Origin: Methylocystis parvus OBBP
Lineage (GTDB): Bacteria; Pseudomonadota; Alphaproteobacteria; Rhizobiales; Beijerinckiaceae
Direction of reading: 5' to 3'
Length of the DNA: 64,000 nucleotides
Assembly (NCBI RefSeq): GCF_027571405.1
Contig: NZ_CP092968.1
Coordinates: 2,750,001-2,814,000 of the forward strand
In this document: in pieces, positions 1,181 to 45,948 of the stretch
Numbering within the stretch: the first letter of the stretch is position 1
Layout: the number at the start of each line of letters is the position of its first letter
The notes under the pieces: generated by a model
The model's input: the letters and a program-made list of their open reading frames with translations, nothing else
The model's database searches: none
What the model was told of the DNA's origin: nothing
Made by a program: the position numbers and the translations under genes

Positions 1181-2557
1181 TCAATTGGCGGTCGGTTTGA
1201 TCGCTTCGACGAAGAGCGGCAGGCCGCCCTTGGGCCGCAGCGTGAAATCCGGAGAAAGCTCGATGCGCGGGCCGGGGACAGGGGTGAAGCGAAAATCGCG
1301 TATGAGCGCCGCCAGGATCGTCGTCATTTCCAGCATCGCGAAGCTCATGCCGATGCAGATGCGCGGGCCGGCCCCGAAGGGCATGTAGGCGCAACGATGG
1401 CGCCCTTTCGCCTTTTCGGGCGCGAAGCGGTCCGGGTCGAAAGCATTTGGCTCATCCCATAGCTTTTCGTGGCGATGCAGCGCCCAGATCGCCACATAGA
1501 TCGGCTCCTTCTTGAGAACCTTGTAAGGCCCGAGCGTCGTGTCCTCTCGCGGCTGGCGCCCGAGCGCGGCGACGGGCGGAAAGAGTCGCATGGCTTCCTG
1601 GATGACCTGCCGCGCGAAGGGCAGGTTTTCGACCGCATTACGATCGATGTCGGATTCGCCGACGACGTCGCGAACCTCGTTTCGCAAACGCTCCTGCGAC
1701 GCCTGGTCCTTGGCGAGCAGCCAGAGACTCCACGCAAGCGCAACGGCGGAGGTTTCGTGTCCGGCCACCATCAATCCGTAAAGATTGGAGATGAGTTCGC
1801 CATCCGTCAGCATGCGCCCGGTTTCTGGGTCCTTCGCCGAAAGCAGCAAATCGAGAATGGCAGGCGCATGGGCGTGGCCGGCGAGTCGCCGCTCGGCGAC
1901 AAGGCGCGCCGTCTCGGCATAGAGATATCGCAACTTCCGGTCGATCTCTCGCGATCCGGGGAAGGGCAGCCATTTCGGAAGTCCGAGAAGCGCATAGAAG
2001 CGCTGCCAACCCATCCCCTTGAAGCCAGTGAGCATGGCCGAGAGATATCTGGCGCGATCAAACGTTCCCGTAGCGCCAAGGAGCGCGTGCTCGATGATCG
2101 AGAAGGTTACTTCGGACATTGGCTGCGTGACGTCGACGGCCGTATTTCGCGGAAGCTGACGCCATGCCGCGCACTGCGCTTTTGCGCATTTCGCGAAGAT
2201 CGGGACAAGCGCCAGCAGATTCTCGTGACGAAAGGCCGGCGCAAGCGCGCGGCGCTGCCAGCGCCATTCAGCGCCTTCGGAGAAAAACAACGCGTCGTCG
2301 GCGATATTCGCCGACAGCGCCGCCGTCGTCAGCTTGTCTCGGCCGAAGGCTTCGGGCCGCGCAATCAGCATTTCTTCGATCAGTTCGGGATCGCTGAGAT
2401 AGACGGTTTTCGGGATGATCGGCCAAATGCCTGAAAGCGACCAGAAATCTTCCCGATAGGCCGCCGGCGGCCAGTTTTCGAGGAAATTACGCAAGGCGGA
2501 GCGGAATGTGGGCTGTTCGTTCGTCCTGACGGGCGTGAAATCGGGATCGTGAAACAT
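1181..2557 (-). CDS. cytochrome P450
   Basis: A 458-residue heme monooxygenase. The oxygen-binding I-helix motif AGHETS is at residues 265-270, the ExxR motif (EAMR) at 321-324, and the heme-binding loop FGAGPRICIG carries the cysteine ligand at C401. Length and motifs are complete, and no N-terminal membrane anchor is obvious, so the enzyme is probably soluble and needs separate redox partners, none of which is nearby. The start is backed by a GGAGAG ribosome-binding site. The gene is divergent from a TetR regulator, with a palindromic operator in the 89-base gap, so expression is probably repressed by that regulator and induced by a small hydrophobic ligand. The substrate is not predictable from sequence alone. 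Confidence 0.95.
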   Translation of the reverse strand: MFHDPDFTPVRTNEQPTFRSALRNFLENWPPAAYREDFWSLSGIWPIIPKTVYLSDPELIEEMLIARPEAFGRDKLTTAALSANIADDALFFSEGAEWRWQRRALAPAFRHENLLALVPIFAKCAKAQCAAWRQLPRNTAVDVTQPMSEVTFSIIEHALLGATGTFDRARYLSAMLTGFKGMGWQRFYALLGLPKWLPFPGSREIDRKLRYLYAETARLVAERRLAGHAHAPAILDLLLSAKDPETGRMLTDGELISNLYGLMVAGHETSAVALAWSLWLLAKDQASQERLRNEVRDVVGESDIDRNAVENLPFARQVIQEAMRLFPPVAALGRQPREDTTLGPYKVLKKEPIYVAIWALHRHEKLWDEPNAFDPDRFAPEKAKGRHRCAYMPFGAGPRICIGMSFAMLEMTTILAALIRDFRFTPVPGPRIELSPDFTLRPKGGLPLFVEAIKPTAN

Positions 2558-2586
2558 GGTCGACTCTCCTCAAGCGAATCGTCGAA

Positions 2587-2614
2587 CCAAACCATACCAT
2601 ATGGTATAGTTTTG
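2587..2614. promoter_or_regulatory. palindromic operator between P450 and TetR genes
   Basis: A perfect 14-base palindrome, ATACCATATGGTAT (2594-2607), extends to 28 bases with only two mismatched pairs. It lies midway between the P450 start (2557) and the tetR start (2647), the normal place for a TetR operator controlling both divergent promoters. The perfect core is AT-rich against the surrounding GC-rich DNA. Binding by the adjacent regulator is inferred from position and symmetry. Confidence 0.75.
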
Positions 2615-2646
2615 GAAAGAGCGGCGCGCCGTGCGAGCCTGACGCC

Positions 2647-3198
2647 ATGAGTCGATTCAGAAAGGAAGACTGGCTGGCGCTCGGCGCGAAGCTGCTTGCC
2701 GGGGAGGGTTCGGCCGCGCTGACGATCGACCGCCTGACGGCGGAGGCGCGGCGGACGCGCGGCAGCTTCTATCACCACTTCGAGGATCGCGACGCTTTTC
2801 TTCGGGCTTTGATGGCGCGCTGGCGCAAAGAGGTCATCGACGAAGCGGGCAAGCGTTACGAGCAGGCGCAATCCGCCAACGATCTGAGGCGGTTGATGCG
2901 GGAATTGCCCTTCGAGGTCGATCACCGGTTCGAGCGCGCGCTGCGCCGCTTGGCCGCGAGCGAACCCATCGTGCGCGAGGCCGTCGCCGACGTCGACTCA
3001 AGACGCATCGAGGGCCTGGCATGCGTGCTCGCACATATCTACCCGGAACTGAAGGACCCGCAATCCGCCGCTTATGTGCAATATGCGGCGGTTGTCGGCC
3101 TGCAATGGCTGATTGGCGACATTGACGATCCCCGCGCGCCGGGAATCATGGAAGCCGGCGCCCGGATATTCCGGCTCAATGACGAGCCTGAACCATAG
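2647..3198 (+). CDS. TetR family transcriptional regulator
   Basis: A 183-residue regulator with the TetR N-terminal helix-turn-helix at about residues 25-45 (LTIDRLTAEARRTRGSFYHHF) and a variable helical ligand-binding domain after it. The GSFYHHF end of the recognition helix is characteristic of the family. It is transcribed away from the P450 gene, and the palindrome at 2587-2614 lies in the shared promoter region, so it most likely represses itself and the P450. The ligand is unknown but is plausibly the P450 substrate or product. Confidence 0.88.
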   Translation: MSRFRKEDWLALGAKLLAGEGSAALTIDRLTAEARRTRGSFYHHFEDRDAFLRALMARWRKEVIDEAGKRYEQAQSANDLRRLMRELPFEVDHRFERALRRLAASEPIVREAVADVDSRRIEGLACVLAHIYPELKDPQSAAYVQYAAVVGLQWLIGDIDDPRAPGIMEAGARIFRLNDEPEP

Positions 3199-3287
3199 AG
3201 ATCGCGCCGCCTTTAGGCTCCTAATGCAGCAGGGCTGAGTCCTAAGTCGTTGAGGATTGGTTAACGATAATGGCTTCGAAGGGCGCA

Positions 3288-3318
3288 AAAACGGCGCGCC
3301 GGTCCCCCGGCGCGCCGC
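3288..3318 (-). terminator. Rho-independent terminator after ccr
   Basis: A perfect 11-base-pair GC-only stem (3293-3303 with 3308-3318) with a four-base loop. On the minus strand it is followed by five T residues (the A run at 3288-3292). It lies 26 bases past the ccr stop codon, as expected for an intrinsic terminator of ccr. Confidence 0.8.
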
Positions 3319-3343
3319 GAAATCCATCAGCAAGCGAACCCGC

Positions 3344-4633
3344 TCACTTCTTCTTGCCATAGGCCTCGACCACGTCCTCGACCGTGTGCAGGCCGGGCTC
3401 GATCGAATTGACCAGCACCGCCATATTGCCCGGCGCGTGCTCGTTCTTCCACATCTTCATATGCGCCAGCGGGATCTTGTCCCAGGCGAAGACCTCGGAC
3501 ATGCAGGGATCGACCCGGCGGTCGATGACGAACTGGTTCGCGGCGGCGGCCTGCTTCAGATGCGCGAAATGCGAGCCCTGAATGCGCTTCTGACGCATCC
3601 ACACATAGCGGGCGTCGAAGGTGATGTTGAAGCCGGACGTGCCGGCGCAGAACACGATCATGCCGCCGCGCTTGGCCACCAGCGTCGAGACCGGAAAGGT
3701 CGCCTCGCCCGGATGCTCGAAGACGATGTCGACGTCCTTCTTGCCCGTGATGTCCCAGATCGCCTTGCCGAATTTGCGCGCTTCCTTGGACCACTCGACA
3801 TATTCCGGCGAGTTGACCTTGGGGAGCTGGCCCCAGCACTTGAAATCCTTGCGGTTGATCACGCCCTTGGCGCCGAGCGACATGACATAGTCGCGCTTGG
3901 ACTCGTCCGAGATCACGCCGATGGCGTTGGCGCCGGCCGCCGCGCAGAGCTGCACGCCGAAAACGCCAAGGCCACCGGAGGCGCCCCAGATCAGGACATT
4001 GTGGCCGGGCTTCAGCTCATGCGGCTCATGGCCAAAGAGCATGCGATAGGCGGTGGCGAGCGTTAAGGTGTAGCAGGCCGACTCTTCCCAGGAGAGATGC
4101 TTGGGGCGCGGCATGAGCTGGCGGTCCTGCGCGCGGCAGAACTGGGCGAAGGAGCCGTCCGGCGTCTCATAGCCCCAGATGCGCTGCGAGGGCGAGAACA
4201 TCGGGTCGCCGCCATTGCACTCCTCATCGTCCCCATCGTCCTGGTTGCAGTGGATGATGACCTCGTCGCCGACCTTCCAGCGCTTCACCTTGGCGCCCAC
4301 CGCCCAGACGATCCCTGAGGCGTCGGAGCCCGCGATGTGATAGGGATTCTTGTGGACGTCGAGAGTCGAGACCGGTTCGCCGAGCGCCGCCCAGACGCCG
4401 TTATAATTGACGCCGGCGGCCATTACGAGAACGAGCACGTCGTGGCTGTCGAGCTGCCAGGTCGGGAGGACCTCGAGCTGCATCGCCGTCTCCGGCGGGC
4501 CGTGACGCTCCTTCCGGATCGCCCAGGCGTACATGTTCTTGGGAACATGGCCGAGCGGCGGAATTTCGCCCAACTCGTAAAGGTCTTTCGTCTCGCTCAA
4601 GGTAGGGCTCCCTCCATCCGGGCTCGTCTGCAA
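3344..4633 (-). CDS. ccr: crotonyl-CoA carboxylase/reductase
   Basis: A 429-residue enzyme that reductively carboxylates crotonyl-CoA to ethylmalonyl-CoA with NADPH and CO2, the signature reaction of the ethylmalonyl-CoA pathway for C2 assimilation. The medium-chain dehydrogenase fold is complete: GroES-like N-terminal half with VNYNGVW at 76-82, the Ccr-specific stretch around HCNQDDGDDEECNGG (128-142), and the Rossmann glycine motif WGASGGLGVFG at 216-226. The wording of the whole protein (for example FEHPGEATFPVS and MRQKRIQGSHFAHLKQA) matches methylotroph Ccr proteins as I know them. It is a single-gene unit with its own terminator. The exact start is slightly uncertain within the first 14 residues. 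Confidence 0.97.
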   Translation of the reverse strand: MQTSPDGGSPTLSETKDLYELGEIPPLGHVPKNMYAWAIRKERHGPPETAMQLEVLPTWQLDSHDVLVLVMAAGVNYNGVWAALGEPVSTLDVHKNPYHIAGSDASGIVWAVGAKVKRWKVGDEVIIHCNQDDGDDEECNGGDPMFSPSQRIWGYETPDGSFAQFCRAQDRQLMPRPKHLSWEESACYTLTLATAYRMLFGHEPHELKPGHNVLIWGASGGLGVFGVQLCAAAGANAIGVISDESKRDYVMSLGAKGVINRKDFKCWGQLPKVNSPEYVEWSKEARKFGKAIWDITGKKDVDIVFEHPGEATFPVSTLVAKRGGMIVFCAGTSGFNITFDARYVWMRQKRIQGSHFAHLKQAAAANQFVIDRRVDPCMSEVFAWDKIPLAHMKMWKNEHAPGNMAVLVNSIEPGLHTVEDVVEAYGKKK

Positions 4634-37932: not shown

Positions 37933-40900
37933 TTACGCGCTCCAGCGCCCGAGCGCCTTCAGCTCCTTGAGCGCCTGCGCGTCGCGGGGCGTCACGTCGG
38001 GATAGTCGGGGTCGGCCGTGGCGGGGTCGAAATATTTCCAGGAGCGCGCACATTTGACGCCGCCGGCGCGGCGCGGCGCGACGGCGACGCCCTTGACCTC
38101 CGGAATCCGGAAAGCGTCCGACGGACCTTCGCCCGTTTCGATGGCGATATCCGACACGATGCAGATTTCCGCGAAATCCACACCGTCGAGCGCCGCGCGC
38201 ATATGGCCGTCGGCGACGTAAACCGCCGGAGCCGCTTCAAGCGACGAGCCGATGCGCTTCTGCGCGCGTTCGATCTCCAGCGCGCCGGTGACCACCGAAC
38301 GGATGTCGCGCACGCTCTCCCATTTCTTCGCGAGCGCCTCGTCGCGCCAATGCGACGGGATGTCGGGGAAGCTCTCGACATGCACGGAAACGGCTTCCGG
38401 ATAACGCGCGAGCCAGGCCTCCTCCGCCGTGAAGACGAGGATCGGCGCGAGCCATGTCGTCACGCAGCGGAAGATGCGCTCGATGACGGCGAGCGACGCT
38501 TTCCGTTTCACGCTCGACGGCGGCTCGCAATAGAGCGCGTCCTTGCGGATGTCGAAATAGAAGGCCGAAAGATCGCTTGTCATGAAGGGCGTGAGCAAGG
38601 CGACGACGCGCTTATAGTCGTACGTCTGATAGGCGGCGCGAATCTGCGCGTCCATCTCGACGAGACGATGCAGCATCAACCGCTCGAGTTCGCTCGCATG
38701 TTCGAGCGCGGCGTCGTCATCCGAGCCGTAATGCGCAAGCGCTCCGATCATCCAGCGCAGCGTGTTGCGCAATTTGCGATAGAGATCGACGAAGGTCTTC
38801 AGGATCTCGGGCCCGACGCGCAGATCGTCGGCATAGTCGGACGCCGCGACCCACAGACGCAGAATGTCGGCGCCGGAATCCGCGATCACCTTTTGCGGCG
38901 CGACGACATTGCCGAGCGACTTCGACATTTTGCGGCCCTTCTCGTCGAGCACGAAGCCATGCGTCAGCACGGCGTCATAGGGCGCGCGGCCGCGCGCGCC
39001 GCAGCTTTCGAGAAGCGATGAGTGAAACCAGCCGCGATGCTGGTCTGAACCTTCGAGATACATCACCTCGTCCTCGCCGCCGTCGCGCTTGCGATGGATG
39101 CCGGCGAGCGCGGGGAAGTTCTTCGGATCGTCGAGAACGAAGGCGTGTGTGGAGCCGGAGTCGAACCAGACGTCGAGAACGTCGGCGACTTTCTCGTAAT
39201 CGTTCGGAGCATATTCGGGCGCGAGGAAGCGCTCGGCCGCGCGCGTCTCGTACCAAGCGTCCGCGCCTTCCTTCTCGAAGGCCTCGACAATGCGAGCGTT
39301 CACGCGCGCGTCGACGAGGATTTCATGCGTGCCCTTCCTGACGAAAACGGCGATCGGCACGCCCCAGGCGCGCTGGCGCGAAACGACCCAGTCCGGGCGA
39401 TTGGCGATCATGCCCCGAATACGGTTCTCGCCGGCCGCCGGCGTCCATTGCGTGCGGGAGATTTCTTCCAGTGCGATGTCGCGGAGGGTGGGATTGTTCG
39501 CTCCCGCTCGTGCGGCCGCCTCATCCCTCCCCTTTACGGGGAGGGTCGAAGCGCGAAGCGCTTCGGGGTGGGGTTCGCCGGCGCCGCCCCCCACCCGGCG
39601 GTCTTCGACCGCCGACCTCCCCGCAAGGGGGAGGTAGGGCGCCGCGCCGAACGGCTTGTCCATCGCGATGAACCATTGCGGCGTGTTGCGGAAGATCACC
39701 GGCTTCTTCGAGCGCCACGAATGCGGATATTGATGCTTCAGCCTTCCGCGCGCGATGAGATTGCCGGCCTTGATCAGCTCGGCGATCACCGCTTCATTGG
39801 CGTCGCCCTTCTCGCCCTTCTCGGTAAGCACGCGCCTGCCGTCGAAACCCGGCGCGTCCTTGGTGTAGAAGCCGTCTTCATCGACCGTATAGGGAATGCG
39901 GGCGTCGATGCCCGATTCCGCGAGACGGCGGCCATTCACCATCCAGATGTCGAAATCCTCGCGGCCATGGCCCGGCGCCGTATGCACGAAGCCGGTGCCG
40001 GCGTCGTCAGTGACATGATCGCCGTCGAAAAGCGGCACGTCGAAGACATAGCGCAGATGCGCCAGCGGATGGGCGCAGACGAGGTCTTTCAACTCGTCCG
40101 CGGAGACGTCGCGCAGCCGCTCGAAGCCATCCACCTTCGCGGCTTTGAACACGTCGCTCGCGAGCTTGTCGGCGAGGATGAATTTCGCGCCGGGAAAGGC
40201 CCAATTCTTGTCGGGCGCCTGCGTCACGCGATAGAGGCCGTAGGAAATCTTCGACGAGAAGCTGATCGCGCGATTGCCCGGCAGCGTCCAGGGCGTCGTG
40301 GTCCAGATCACCACGCGGGCGTCGGAGAGGTCCTCTTCCGCGCCGCGCGGGATCGGGAAGGCGACCCACACCGTATCTGACGTGTGGTCCTCATATTCGA
40401 CTTCGGCTTCCGCCAGCGCCGTCTTCTCCACGACCGACCACATCACCGGTTTGGAGCCGCGATAGAGCAGGCCGTTTTCGGCGAATTTCATGATCTCGCG
40501 GGCGATGATCGCTTCGGCCGGATAAGCCATGGTCGCGTAAGGATGATCCCATTCGCCGGCGACGCCCAGCCGCTTGAACTCCTCGCGCTGGATGGAGAGC
40601 CAGTTCTCCGCATAGGCGCGGCATTCGCGGCGGAAGGCGATCATTTCGTCGGGCTGCGCAAAATCCGGCTTCTTCCTGCCCTTGGCGCGGTAATTTTCCT
40701 CCTCGATCTTCCATTCGATCGGCAGGCCATGGCAATCCCAGCCCGGCACATAGACGCAGTCCTTGCCGGTCATGCGCTGGCTGCGCGTGACGACGTCCTT
40801 AAGGATCTTGTTCAGCGCATGGCCGATATGGATATTGCCGTTGGCGTAGGGCGGCCCGTCATGCAGCGTGAATTTCGGCCGGCCTTTGGCGGCCTCGCGC

Positions 40901-44312: not shown

Positions 44313-44734
44313 GGTGGGATCCGTCAGGCGGCGCTAGGCGGGCCAAACTGCCGCGCGGCGGAGGGAAGCGCAAGGGGAGCAAATTGTCGACGTCCCGTCT
44401 CGGCGCCGACGACGCGCCCGGCGGTCATGGCGCCGTGAGAGCCGGAGGCCTATTCGCGCGTTCCCGCCAAAACGGCGTTCCGAGCCTGGTTTTGGTTACG
44501 AATATCCGGATTGTCTGCGTTGTGGAGCCTCGGGAGCAGTCGGTATGAAATAATTTCATGACATTACTGCTCTGAGATTTAAAATAGATGGCGAATCCTA
44601 AAGCTTGAATGTATATCAAATATTAGAATTAAATTGAAATAAGCTACATAGCTTCTTAAATTTATCTGCGCTATTGGTTCCTAAATATTTTTTAAGAAAA
44701 AAATTGATATATATGGCCTCAACGGAGGCAGAAA
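44313..44734. other. 422-base gap that turns strongly AT-rich
   Basis: The first 150 bases look like host DNA and must include the ribF promoter. From about 44540 the base composition falls sharply (long A/T runs such as TAAATATTTTTTAAGAAAAAAATTGATATATATGG), and the low-GC part continues into the gene at 44735. A small perfect hairpin AAGCTA-CA-TAGCTT lies near 44642. No flanking direct repeat, tRNA gene or integrase could be seen. The short minus-strand frame at 44425-44619 has no support. Confidence 0.6.
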
Positions 44735-45853
44735 ATGGCTACTGTTCGCGTTAACTTAAGTTCTGTGTTGAATACGGTTAATAATTCAATAAAAGATTGG
44801 GAGCAATGGAAACAAATTCATAAAGATAAGATTGTTTGCACAACGAGCAGGGGTGAAGTCATAAACTATGAAGAACGGTTCGTAGATTCAGTACTATCTC
44901 AGATTTCCGAATTAGCTCCATCCGATGTTACGCCACAATATCCATTTTCTGACAAAAAAGGAAAATCAAGACGGGTTGATTTTATGATTGCCAATCCGTC
45001 AAAAGGATATTTATTACCTATTGAACTCGATGGCACAAACAGAGATAGGTATACAGATAGCGCCAATCGACATATCGATTGGAATGATTTTCTTGAACGT
45101 CAAAACGCATTATTAGAAAAGTTCGGAACATTGCTCCGTTATTCTAATTGGAGAATGCTTAATAATCCAAATGAGATAATTCACGAGATTTCGGATAAAT
45201 TGGCGAGCCAAAGAGCCGCCAAAAACAAGAAGGACGAACAACAAAGAATTATTATTAAACCATTTGTGCCGCCATCAGAACCTACGCCATTAGAACCAGA
45301 ACCACCAAAATCAATTCCACCGGAAACGGCTTCTCCAAAACCAGTTCGGCCTTCAGCTCCCTTGTCCTCGCCAACGCCATCGCCACAACCAGCCGTAGCG
45401 ATAGTACAATCTCCGCCTCCCAAGCGATCAGCATGGCGGGCGGCTTCGACCGTTGTGTTTGCTATGGGCGCTCTGGGTTATTTTGTTTTGCAAAATGGTC
45501 CACGCCAAAATCTGGCTGTTCAGGTCGTATCCGCCGCAGAAAGCATTGAAGCTCTGAAGGCTCCCTTTCATGTGAGCGAAAGCGTCCTTGCATGCGGGAG
45601 AGTGGCGCAGGTGAGCGCCCATCCTGAGATCACCTACATCAATCTAGATCGCCCGTATCCGGACCAAACCCTTGCTCTGGTAGTTTGGCAGAATGATCTG
45701 GCGGCCTATGAAGCTCGGTTTGGAAATTTGTCAGCTTTAGAAGGCAGGCGAGTATGCGCACAAGGCGTGATTGAAGAGCATAAGGGAAGCCTTCAGATGA
45801 TTCTGAAAAATCCTCAATTCCTTCGTCTGATGACCCATCAGCCTTCCTTCTAA
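44735..45853 (+). CDS. putative PD-(D/E)XK-like nuclease with membrane helix and OB-fold-like domain (foreign gene)
   Basis: A 372-residue protein with four parts. Residues about 41-140 resemble small PD-(D/E)XK nuclease domains of the DUF559/DUF2726 type: YEERFVDSVL, then RRVDFMIA with D82, a hairpin, and LLPIELDG with E97 and D99 where E-x-K is usual. Residues 175-230 are proline-rich. Residues about 235-253 are one transmembrane helix after basic PPPKRSAWR, putting the nuclease part inside. Residues about 283-365 (ACGRVAQVSAHPEITYINLD..RRVCAQGVIEEHKGS) look like an OB fold with C287 and C341 placed for a disulfide, consistent with a periplasmic domain. A GGAGG ribosome-binding site precedes the ATG. 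The gene is AT-rich to about 45420, then nearer host GC. Function unknown. Confidence 0.72.
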   Translation: MATVRVNLSSVLNTVNNSIKDWEQWKQIHKDKIVCTTSRGEVINYEERFVDSVLSQISELAPSDVTPQYPFSDKKGKSRRVDFMIANPSKGYLLPIELDGTNRDRYTDSANRHIDWNDFLERQNALLEKFGTLLRYSNWRMLNNPNEIIHEISDKLASQRAAKNKKDEQQRIIIKPFVPPSEPTPLEPEPPKSIPPETASPKPVRPSAPLSSPTPSPQPAVAIVQSPPPKRSAWRAASTVVFAMGALGYFVLQNGPRQNLAVQVVSAAESIEALKAPFHVSESVLACGRVAQVSAHPEITYINLDRPYPDQTLALVVWQNDLAAYEARFGNLSALEGRRVCAQGVIEEHKGSLQMILKNPQFLRLMTHQPSF

Positions 45854-45948
45854 AAGGAACAGCAATTCCATAGCGTGCAGCGCTGTGGCGGCGATTGCTG
45901 AATTAGCAGCATTCTTGTTTTTGATTTTCTCAAAGTCGCCGTCGCCGA

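Follow-up and report, generated by a model that had tools for sequence, protein, structure and literature searches.

The inserted gene and its locus

The window, the whole stretch of 64,000 nucleotides analysed here, comes from Methylocystis parvus OBBP (NZ_CP092968.1, positions 2,750,001 to 2,814,000). On its plus strand, at 44735..45853, an uninterrupted open reading frame (ORF) encodes a protein of 372 amino acids that joins a nuclease-like domain, a proline-rich linker, a transmembrane (TM) helix and an OB fold. In a protein search, 123 proteins passed E<=1e-3, counting that of the window itself, so the ORF is a real gene. In the following, A denotes genes with the nuclease-TM-OB layout, B genes for a small membrane protein and C genes for a small, secreted-looking OB protein. 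The window gene is preceded by a ribosome-binding-like site, GGAGG (44724..44728), and is flanked by ribF on one side and maoC-HAD on the other, the placement given in a preliminary description of the stretch. The nuclease core comprises residues ~20-160 (44792..45214), with the acidic residues D82 (44978..44980) and E97 and D99 of an IELDG motif (45023..45031). The low-complexity linker (residues 176-233, 45260..45433), the predicted membrane helix (residues 234-254, 45434..45496) and the OB fold (residues ~263-366, 45521..45832) follow. The OB fold contains the cysteines C287 (45593..45595) and C341 (45755..45757). All these features of the gene are on the plus strand.

The preliminary description saw an AT-rich, probably acquired gene, and the comparison with congeners agrees. 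The GC content is 0.36 for residues 1-175 and 0.52 for residues 263-372, against 0.68 in ribF. Twenty loci were fetched out of 26 ribF-bearing genomes, counting the own genome. All 19 congener loci examined have HAD-maoC-ribF, and none has the A gene. The maoC-ribF spacer was measured in eight congener loci; it is 651 bp long in L144 and 22-230 bp in the other seven. The similarity of the window to congener spacers stops at ~44404 and resumes at ~45944; thus, ~1.5 kb were inserted (44405..45943, approximate limits). Neither a tRNA nor direct repeats were found at the insertion, and promoter-like matches were not above shuffles. Among 298 members of the bacterial family, a strong match to the nuclease part occurred in the own genome only; G204 had a match to the OB part only (8.9e-19). 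Many weak matches of the family scan (E near 1e-4, often to linker or helix alone) were set aside as chance. Two other families had A genes in 11/299 and 5/247 genomes. A recent acquisition of the window gene is supported.

The long spacer of L144 holds a different ORF of 160 amino acids (2598-3080), which we take to resemble a Dps-family protein. With this second ORF at the same position, the maoC-ribF site may take insertions repeatedly.

A family of nuclease-TM-OB proteins and a natural A-C fusion

Structure prediction with AlphaFold 2 (AF2) agreed with the domains named in the preliminary description: a PD-(D/E)XK-like nuclease, a membrane helix and an OB-like domain with two cysteines. 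The predicted local distance difference test (pLDDT) score was mostly >90 over the nuclease core, except for residues ~101-120, and 95-98 across residues 271-360 of the OB fold, which spans residues ~268-366 in the model. It was low in the linker and in the single predicted helix, which is weakly hydrophobic (KD19 1.36) and occupies the helix position of the A family. The predicted folds match solved nucleases for the N-terminal part and solved nucleic-acid-binding OB folds for the C-terminal part. For this search, the nuclease domain was folded separately because the OB domain dominated structure matches of the full model. D82, E97, D99, C287 and C341 do not vary across the alignment of 49 sequences, which includes that of the window, and E-x-DG is present in all of the best 120 of the 123 relatives. 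The protein scores below the curated Pfam cut-offs of DUF559/MTES_1575 (19.4 vs 38.2 and 12.1 vs 20.6 bits). The MTES_1575 match has an E-value of 0.0011, and a match to this family at E<=0.1 was obtained for 17 of the 26 members scanned, that of the window being one of them. By fold and active-site pattern, the N-terminal part can be assigned to the Vsr-type PD-(D/E)XK fold class (DUF559/MTES_1575 superfamily), with cleavage a predicted activity.

The domain order had been considered unusual, but the nuclease-TM-OB layout is a family trait. Profile hidden Markov models detected nuclease, hydrophobic helix and OB fold in 116 of the best 120 of 123 relatives, the window's included; the models were cut from alignment A2, whose 49 members match partly by construction. 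The four relatives lacking the OB fold are short (207-269 amino acids). A distant branch, found with a Polaromonas protein, has the same layout in 114 of the best 120 of 188 matches. The linker is long and variable across the family. One relative (L124, 8341-9339) keeps the nuclease part and is hydrophobic in C-terminal segments; it has no detected OB domain, and its motif reads E-L-E-G in place of E-L-D-G.

The relatives usually occur in a gene set. Twenty-seven A loci were examined, excluding the near-copy L007 and contigs seen twice. A profile with alignment gave 16 loci in genome contigs, a direct single-protein scan none; the families of these genomes (G numbers) were deduced from contigs shared with Acinetobacter, Psychrobacter and Vibrio loci. 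A C gene for an OB protein of ~120 amino acids adjoins A in 21/27 loci, upstream in L113 and downstream elsewhere. The other six A loci (L009, L011, L018, L021, L115 and L121) have no neighbouring C. Three A genes are incomplete: L116 is in pieces, L120 is short at the start and in L121 no nuclease part was recognised. A simple test of hydrophobicity gave a signal-peptide-like start for 19 of the 21 C proteins; the start calls of the remaining two (L013, L107) may be too short. A B gene lies between A and C in 10/27 loci (phmmer). Its product has two hydrophobic helices flanking a charged, coiled-coil-like stretch, or is a longer form with a terminal OB fold. A-(B)-C is a conserved gene set, apparently not described before. 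A literature search, weak on subscription journals, gave no account of DUF559 with OB fold, TM segment and nuclease, or of DUF559 in anti-phage defence. The main text of DefensePredictor (PMC13092281) does not mention OB-fold, Vsr or DUF559.

C-type genes also occur alone. A solitary one in a genome of the presumed Vibrio family (L134, 7670-8041) sits in a series of direct repeats (78-141 nt, ending in GGCGTTA) that resembles a superintegron cassette array.

The window gene is an A-type nuclease and helix fused to a C-type OB domain, as judged from alignment and phylogeny. Its nuclease and helix region aligns with A. A tree built from 53 OB domains places the window OB together with P0002 and the Rhodopila C protein (L002), with support of 100/99; this group falls within the clade (99/95) that contains the C proteins and the solitary C-like ones. 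The identity of the window OB to C domains is 50% on average and 70% at most (n=14), compared with 27% and 38% for A-type OBs (n=26). The C-like part starts at the post-signal-peptide start of C proteins, as aligned and with the cleavage site predicted. Most relatives share the layout, with an OB domain from another branch than that of the window protein. P0002 has the same fused arrangement with a longer spacer and 55% identity to the window protein. Apart from these two, no protein >200 amino acids among 282 fetched proteins had the C motif. Since the P0002 OB has the L002 C protein, not the window OB, as its nearer neighbour (100/77), one fusion event fits as well as two. The GC content at third codon positions (GC3) is 0.31, 0.33 and 0.51 for residues 1-175, 176-262 and 263-372. 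A cut at residue 262 is significant (Fisher p=0.00097; 1/5000 amino-acid-matched shuffles). No GC3 change point falls exactly at the A/C joint, and the strongest single break follows residue 208 (19/2000 shuffles as strong). The own genome gave no second match; the A gene is single-copy, and C is fused to it with no separate secreted C gene present.

Where neighbouring genes occur naturally fused, their products can be expected to work together, which makes the window gene good evidence of a functional link between A and C. The descent of the window OB from secreted-looking C proteins argues for a periplasmic location, as the preliminary description had it, with the nuclease predicted on the cytoplasmic side. 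A device of one gene, as proposed there, holds only for the condensed form in the window, because most relatives have two or three genes.

Genes beside the A loci

Secreted-type DNase genes were present in the fetched flanks of 8/27 A loci. They encode Endonuclease_NS relatives (L013, L018, L020, L021, L106, L115 and L116), endonuclease I (L012, L021) and SNase (L013, L106). The same queries found a DNase gene at 1 of 12 loci of solitary C genes (SNase, L131). Endonuclease_NS was the commonest Pfam family among the scanned neighbours (9/107), an upper figure since the 107 were hand-picked from 194 and included already-found DNases. Genome-wide, the Acinetobacter/Psychrobacter family has 11 A-bearing genomes, of which eight have one Endonuclease_NS match, on another contig or ~1 Mb away. 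In the remaining three (G851, G770 and G939), every Endonuclease_NS match listed falls within ~7 kb of A. All five A-bearing Vibrio-family genomes lack a match, and the own genome has a single copy ~193 kb from the window gene. In L106 (4477-10846), a short stretch combines A and C with an SNase gene, a transposase-like gene and three Endonuclease_NS-like ORFs.

Restriction and defence genes form a second group of neighbours. A lies between hsdS and hsdR of type I restriction-modification (R-M) systems in L019 and L107 and after an hsdS in L003. L119 has hsdM and YhcG in the vicinity, L021 Hachiman HamA and GMT genes, L018 a RecB-like nuclease, an SNF2 protein and a methyltransferase, and L108 an HNH gene whose GmrSD-like part scores slightly below the cut-off. 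Toxin-antitoxin or AbiE genes are close to L018, L020 and L021. A PADLOC scan of the 107 neighbours gave mainly type I R-M subunits, with 3-4 members each. Together, a DNase or a restriction/defence gene is near A in 13/27 loci. Six plasmid records match, five via the nuclease part and one via the OB only. Phage records gave no match, and eight stretches of viral contigs fit a single peptide pattern with none confirmed, a search of limited sensitivity; both results are neutral for defence.

In L019, the A-B-C set (1521-3851) between hsdS and hsdR is on a mobilizable Acinetobacter plasmid. Its A gene is nearly identical to those of the contigs L003 and L107.

Elsewhere in the window, ileS contains an in-frame, GC-rich, palindrome-like element of ~126 bp (39513-39639). 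The ileS of 4 of 12 congeners searched matches in two pieces that stop near this element (residues ~466-518).

A putative barrier to incoming DNA and its relation to known systems

The window protein may be an inner-membrane barrier against incoming phage, plasmid or transforming DNA, a reading given an even chance. The OB domain would face the periplasm and recognise DNA in transit or the machinery carrying it. The tethered Vsr/DUF559-type nuclease would cut the DNA on its emergence at the cytoplasmic side, and the membrane anchor would keep the nuclease off the chromosome. In relatives, this job would be split among A, the optional membrane protein B and the secreted OB protein C; in the window, A and C would be condensed into a single chain. 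A barrier fits the tethered nuclease, the periplasmic OB domain, the secreted OB partner and the DNase and some R-M or defence neighbours. A wider version is an envelope-spanning checkpoint. Secreted and membrane-borne OB proteins would catch DNA in the periplasm and pass it to the tethered nuclease. Phage, plasmid and transforming DNA would be stopped because of where it enters and not because of its sequence, and the window would hold a one-gene form. This version is tentative and rather doubtful as a whole.

Several observations weigh against a barrier. The preliminary description named defence-rich neighbourhoods as a check; the 13 loci above have a DNase or restriction/defence gene nearby, and none was seen in the other 14/27, where neighbours were only partly identified. 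A role against incoming DNA is plausible from these 13 loci; the window gene itself stands alone in a housekeeping operon. Type I R-M linkage as three independent loci was dropped, since the identity of 94-97% among L003, L019 and L107 marks them as one lineage. In a control, 14 of 16 A-bearing genomes had hsdS-type matches and only two had them near A (G923, G1161), which makes type I linkage alone modest evidence. The window protein matched no family of PADLOC-DB 2.0.0 at E<=10. No invariant or near-invariant histidine occurs in the 49 aligned sequences, so the D51-H69 pairing of Vsr is unmatched. The net charge of the window OB is -2, while 20 of 21 C proteins measured have +2 to +12; a sample of other A-layout OBs spans -3 to +5. 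The slightly acidic window OB may bind a protein rather than DNA.

The receptor-like order from outside domain through helix to inside domain would also suit a suicide response. The periplasmic OB would bind a signal (phage or envelope damage, or a ligand), the long variable linker might relay it, and the nuclease would then cut the cell's own DNA in an abortive response. The toxin-antitoxin or AbiE genes near three loci are consistent with this. It is unlikely nevertheless: an action on outside DNA would better explain why C is a protein of its own that is secreted and why secreted DNases are encoded nearby, and a known sensor domain was not found. The DNase genes that often adjoin A loci could instead indicate use of extracellular DNA, bound and degraded in the envelope for nutrition or processed in natural transformation. 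OB folds are discussed for the extracellular nucleases ExeM and Xds as well, in the accessible parts of the sources. Here, however, the nuclease would be cytoplasmic, the distribution is patchy in all three families scanned and a place in R-M operons is unlike a nutritional core function, leaving this a small chance. A decaying chimera without function would agree with the solitary recent insertion, the mixed codon composition and the deviating OB charge. The open frame, the retention of every invariant residue and the second fusion, P0002, make decay improbable. Least probable is a membrane-held repair nuclease, suggested by the Vsr-like fold and by database names such as very-short-patch-repair endonuclease and contradicted by the membrane helix, the secreted-looking OB partner and the missing histidine.

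Few worked examples exist of self/non-self discrimination by place of entry. If the barrier reading is true, a nuclease-TM-OB gene with a secreted OB partner adds periplasmic recognition to this principle. The natural fusion in the window is a one-gene construct suited to testing it.

By structure comparison, the window nuclease has the same fold as I-Bth0305I (3r3p) and AbaSI (4par), with a low sequence identity of 12-16%; neither of these is known to have a membrane helix. Vsr proper shares the fold as well and differs in its catalytic histidine, which is not conserved in the window family. The Vsr-type restriction endonuclease domains DUF559 and MTES_1575 (PF04480, PF18741; PMC3710099) have the nuclease core and E-x-DG in common with the window protein, according to the accessible part of that source. 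The window core differs by its fusion to TM helix and OB fold and by scores below both Pfam cut-offs. ExeM (PMC6085458) and Xds are envelope or extracellular nucleases discussed with an OB fold; in the text available, ExeM is an EEP-type nuclease exported from the cytoplasm, unlike the Vsr-type window nuclease predicted to stay inside. Zorya and Kiwa are membrane-located answers to incoming phage DNA; in the sections seen of PMC12904381, Zorya is a rotary motor with separate nucleases and Kiwa a lattice in the membrane that binds DNA and does not cut it.

The closest parallel is SNIPE, a membrane-bound DUF4041 and GIY-YIG nuclease able to cut phage DNA during injection (PMC13190303, accessible text). 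Neither DUF4041 nor GIY-YIG was in the Pfam scan of the window protein at E<=10, and the nuclease folds are unrelated. The helix of SNIPE is near the N terminus and that of the window protein mid-chain; a periplasmic OB domain or a secreted partner is not described for SNIPE in the text available. SNIPE is an inner-membrane nuclease with a catalytic part in the cytoplasm, a topology predicted here for the window protein, and localisation instead of sequence could spare the host (PMC13190303). A barrier to DNA entry, resembling SNIPE in its way of working without kinship, is the most likely role of the window protein.
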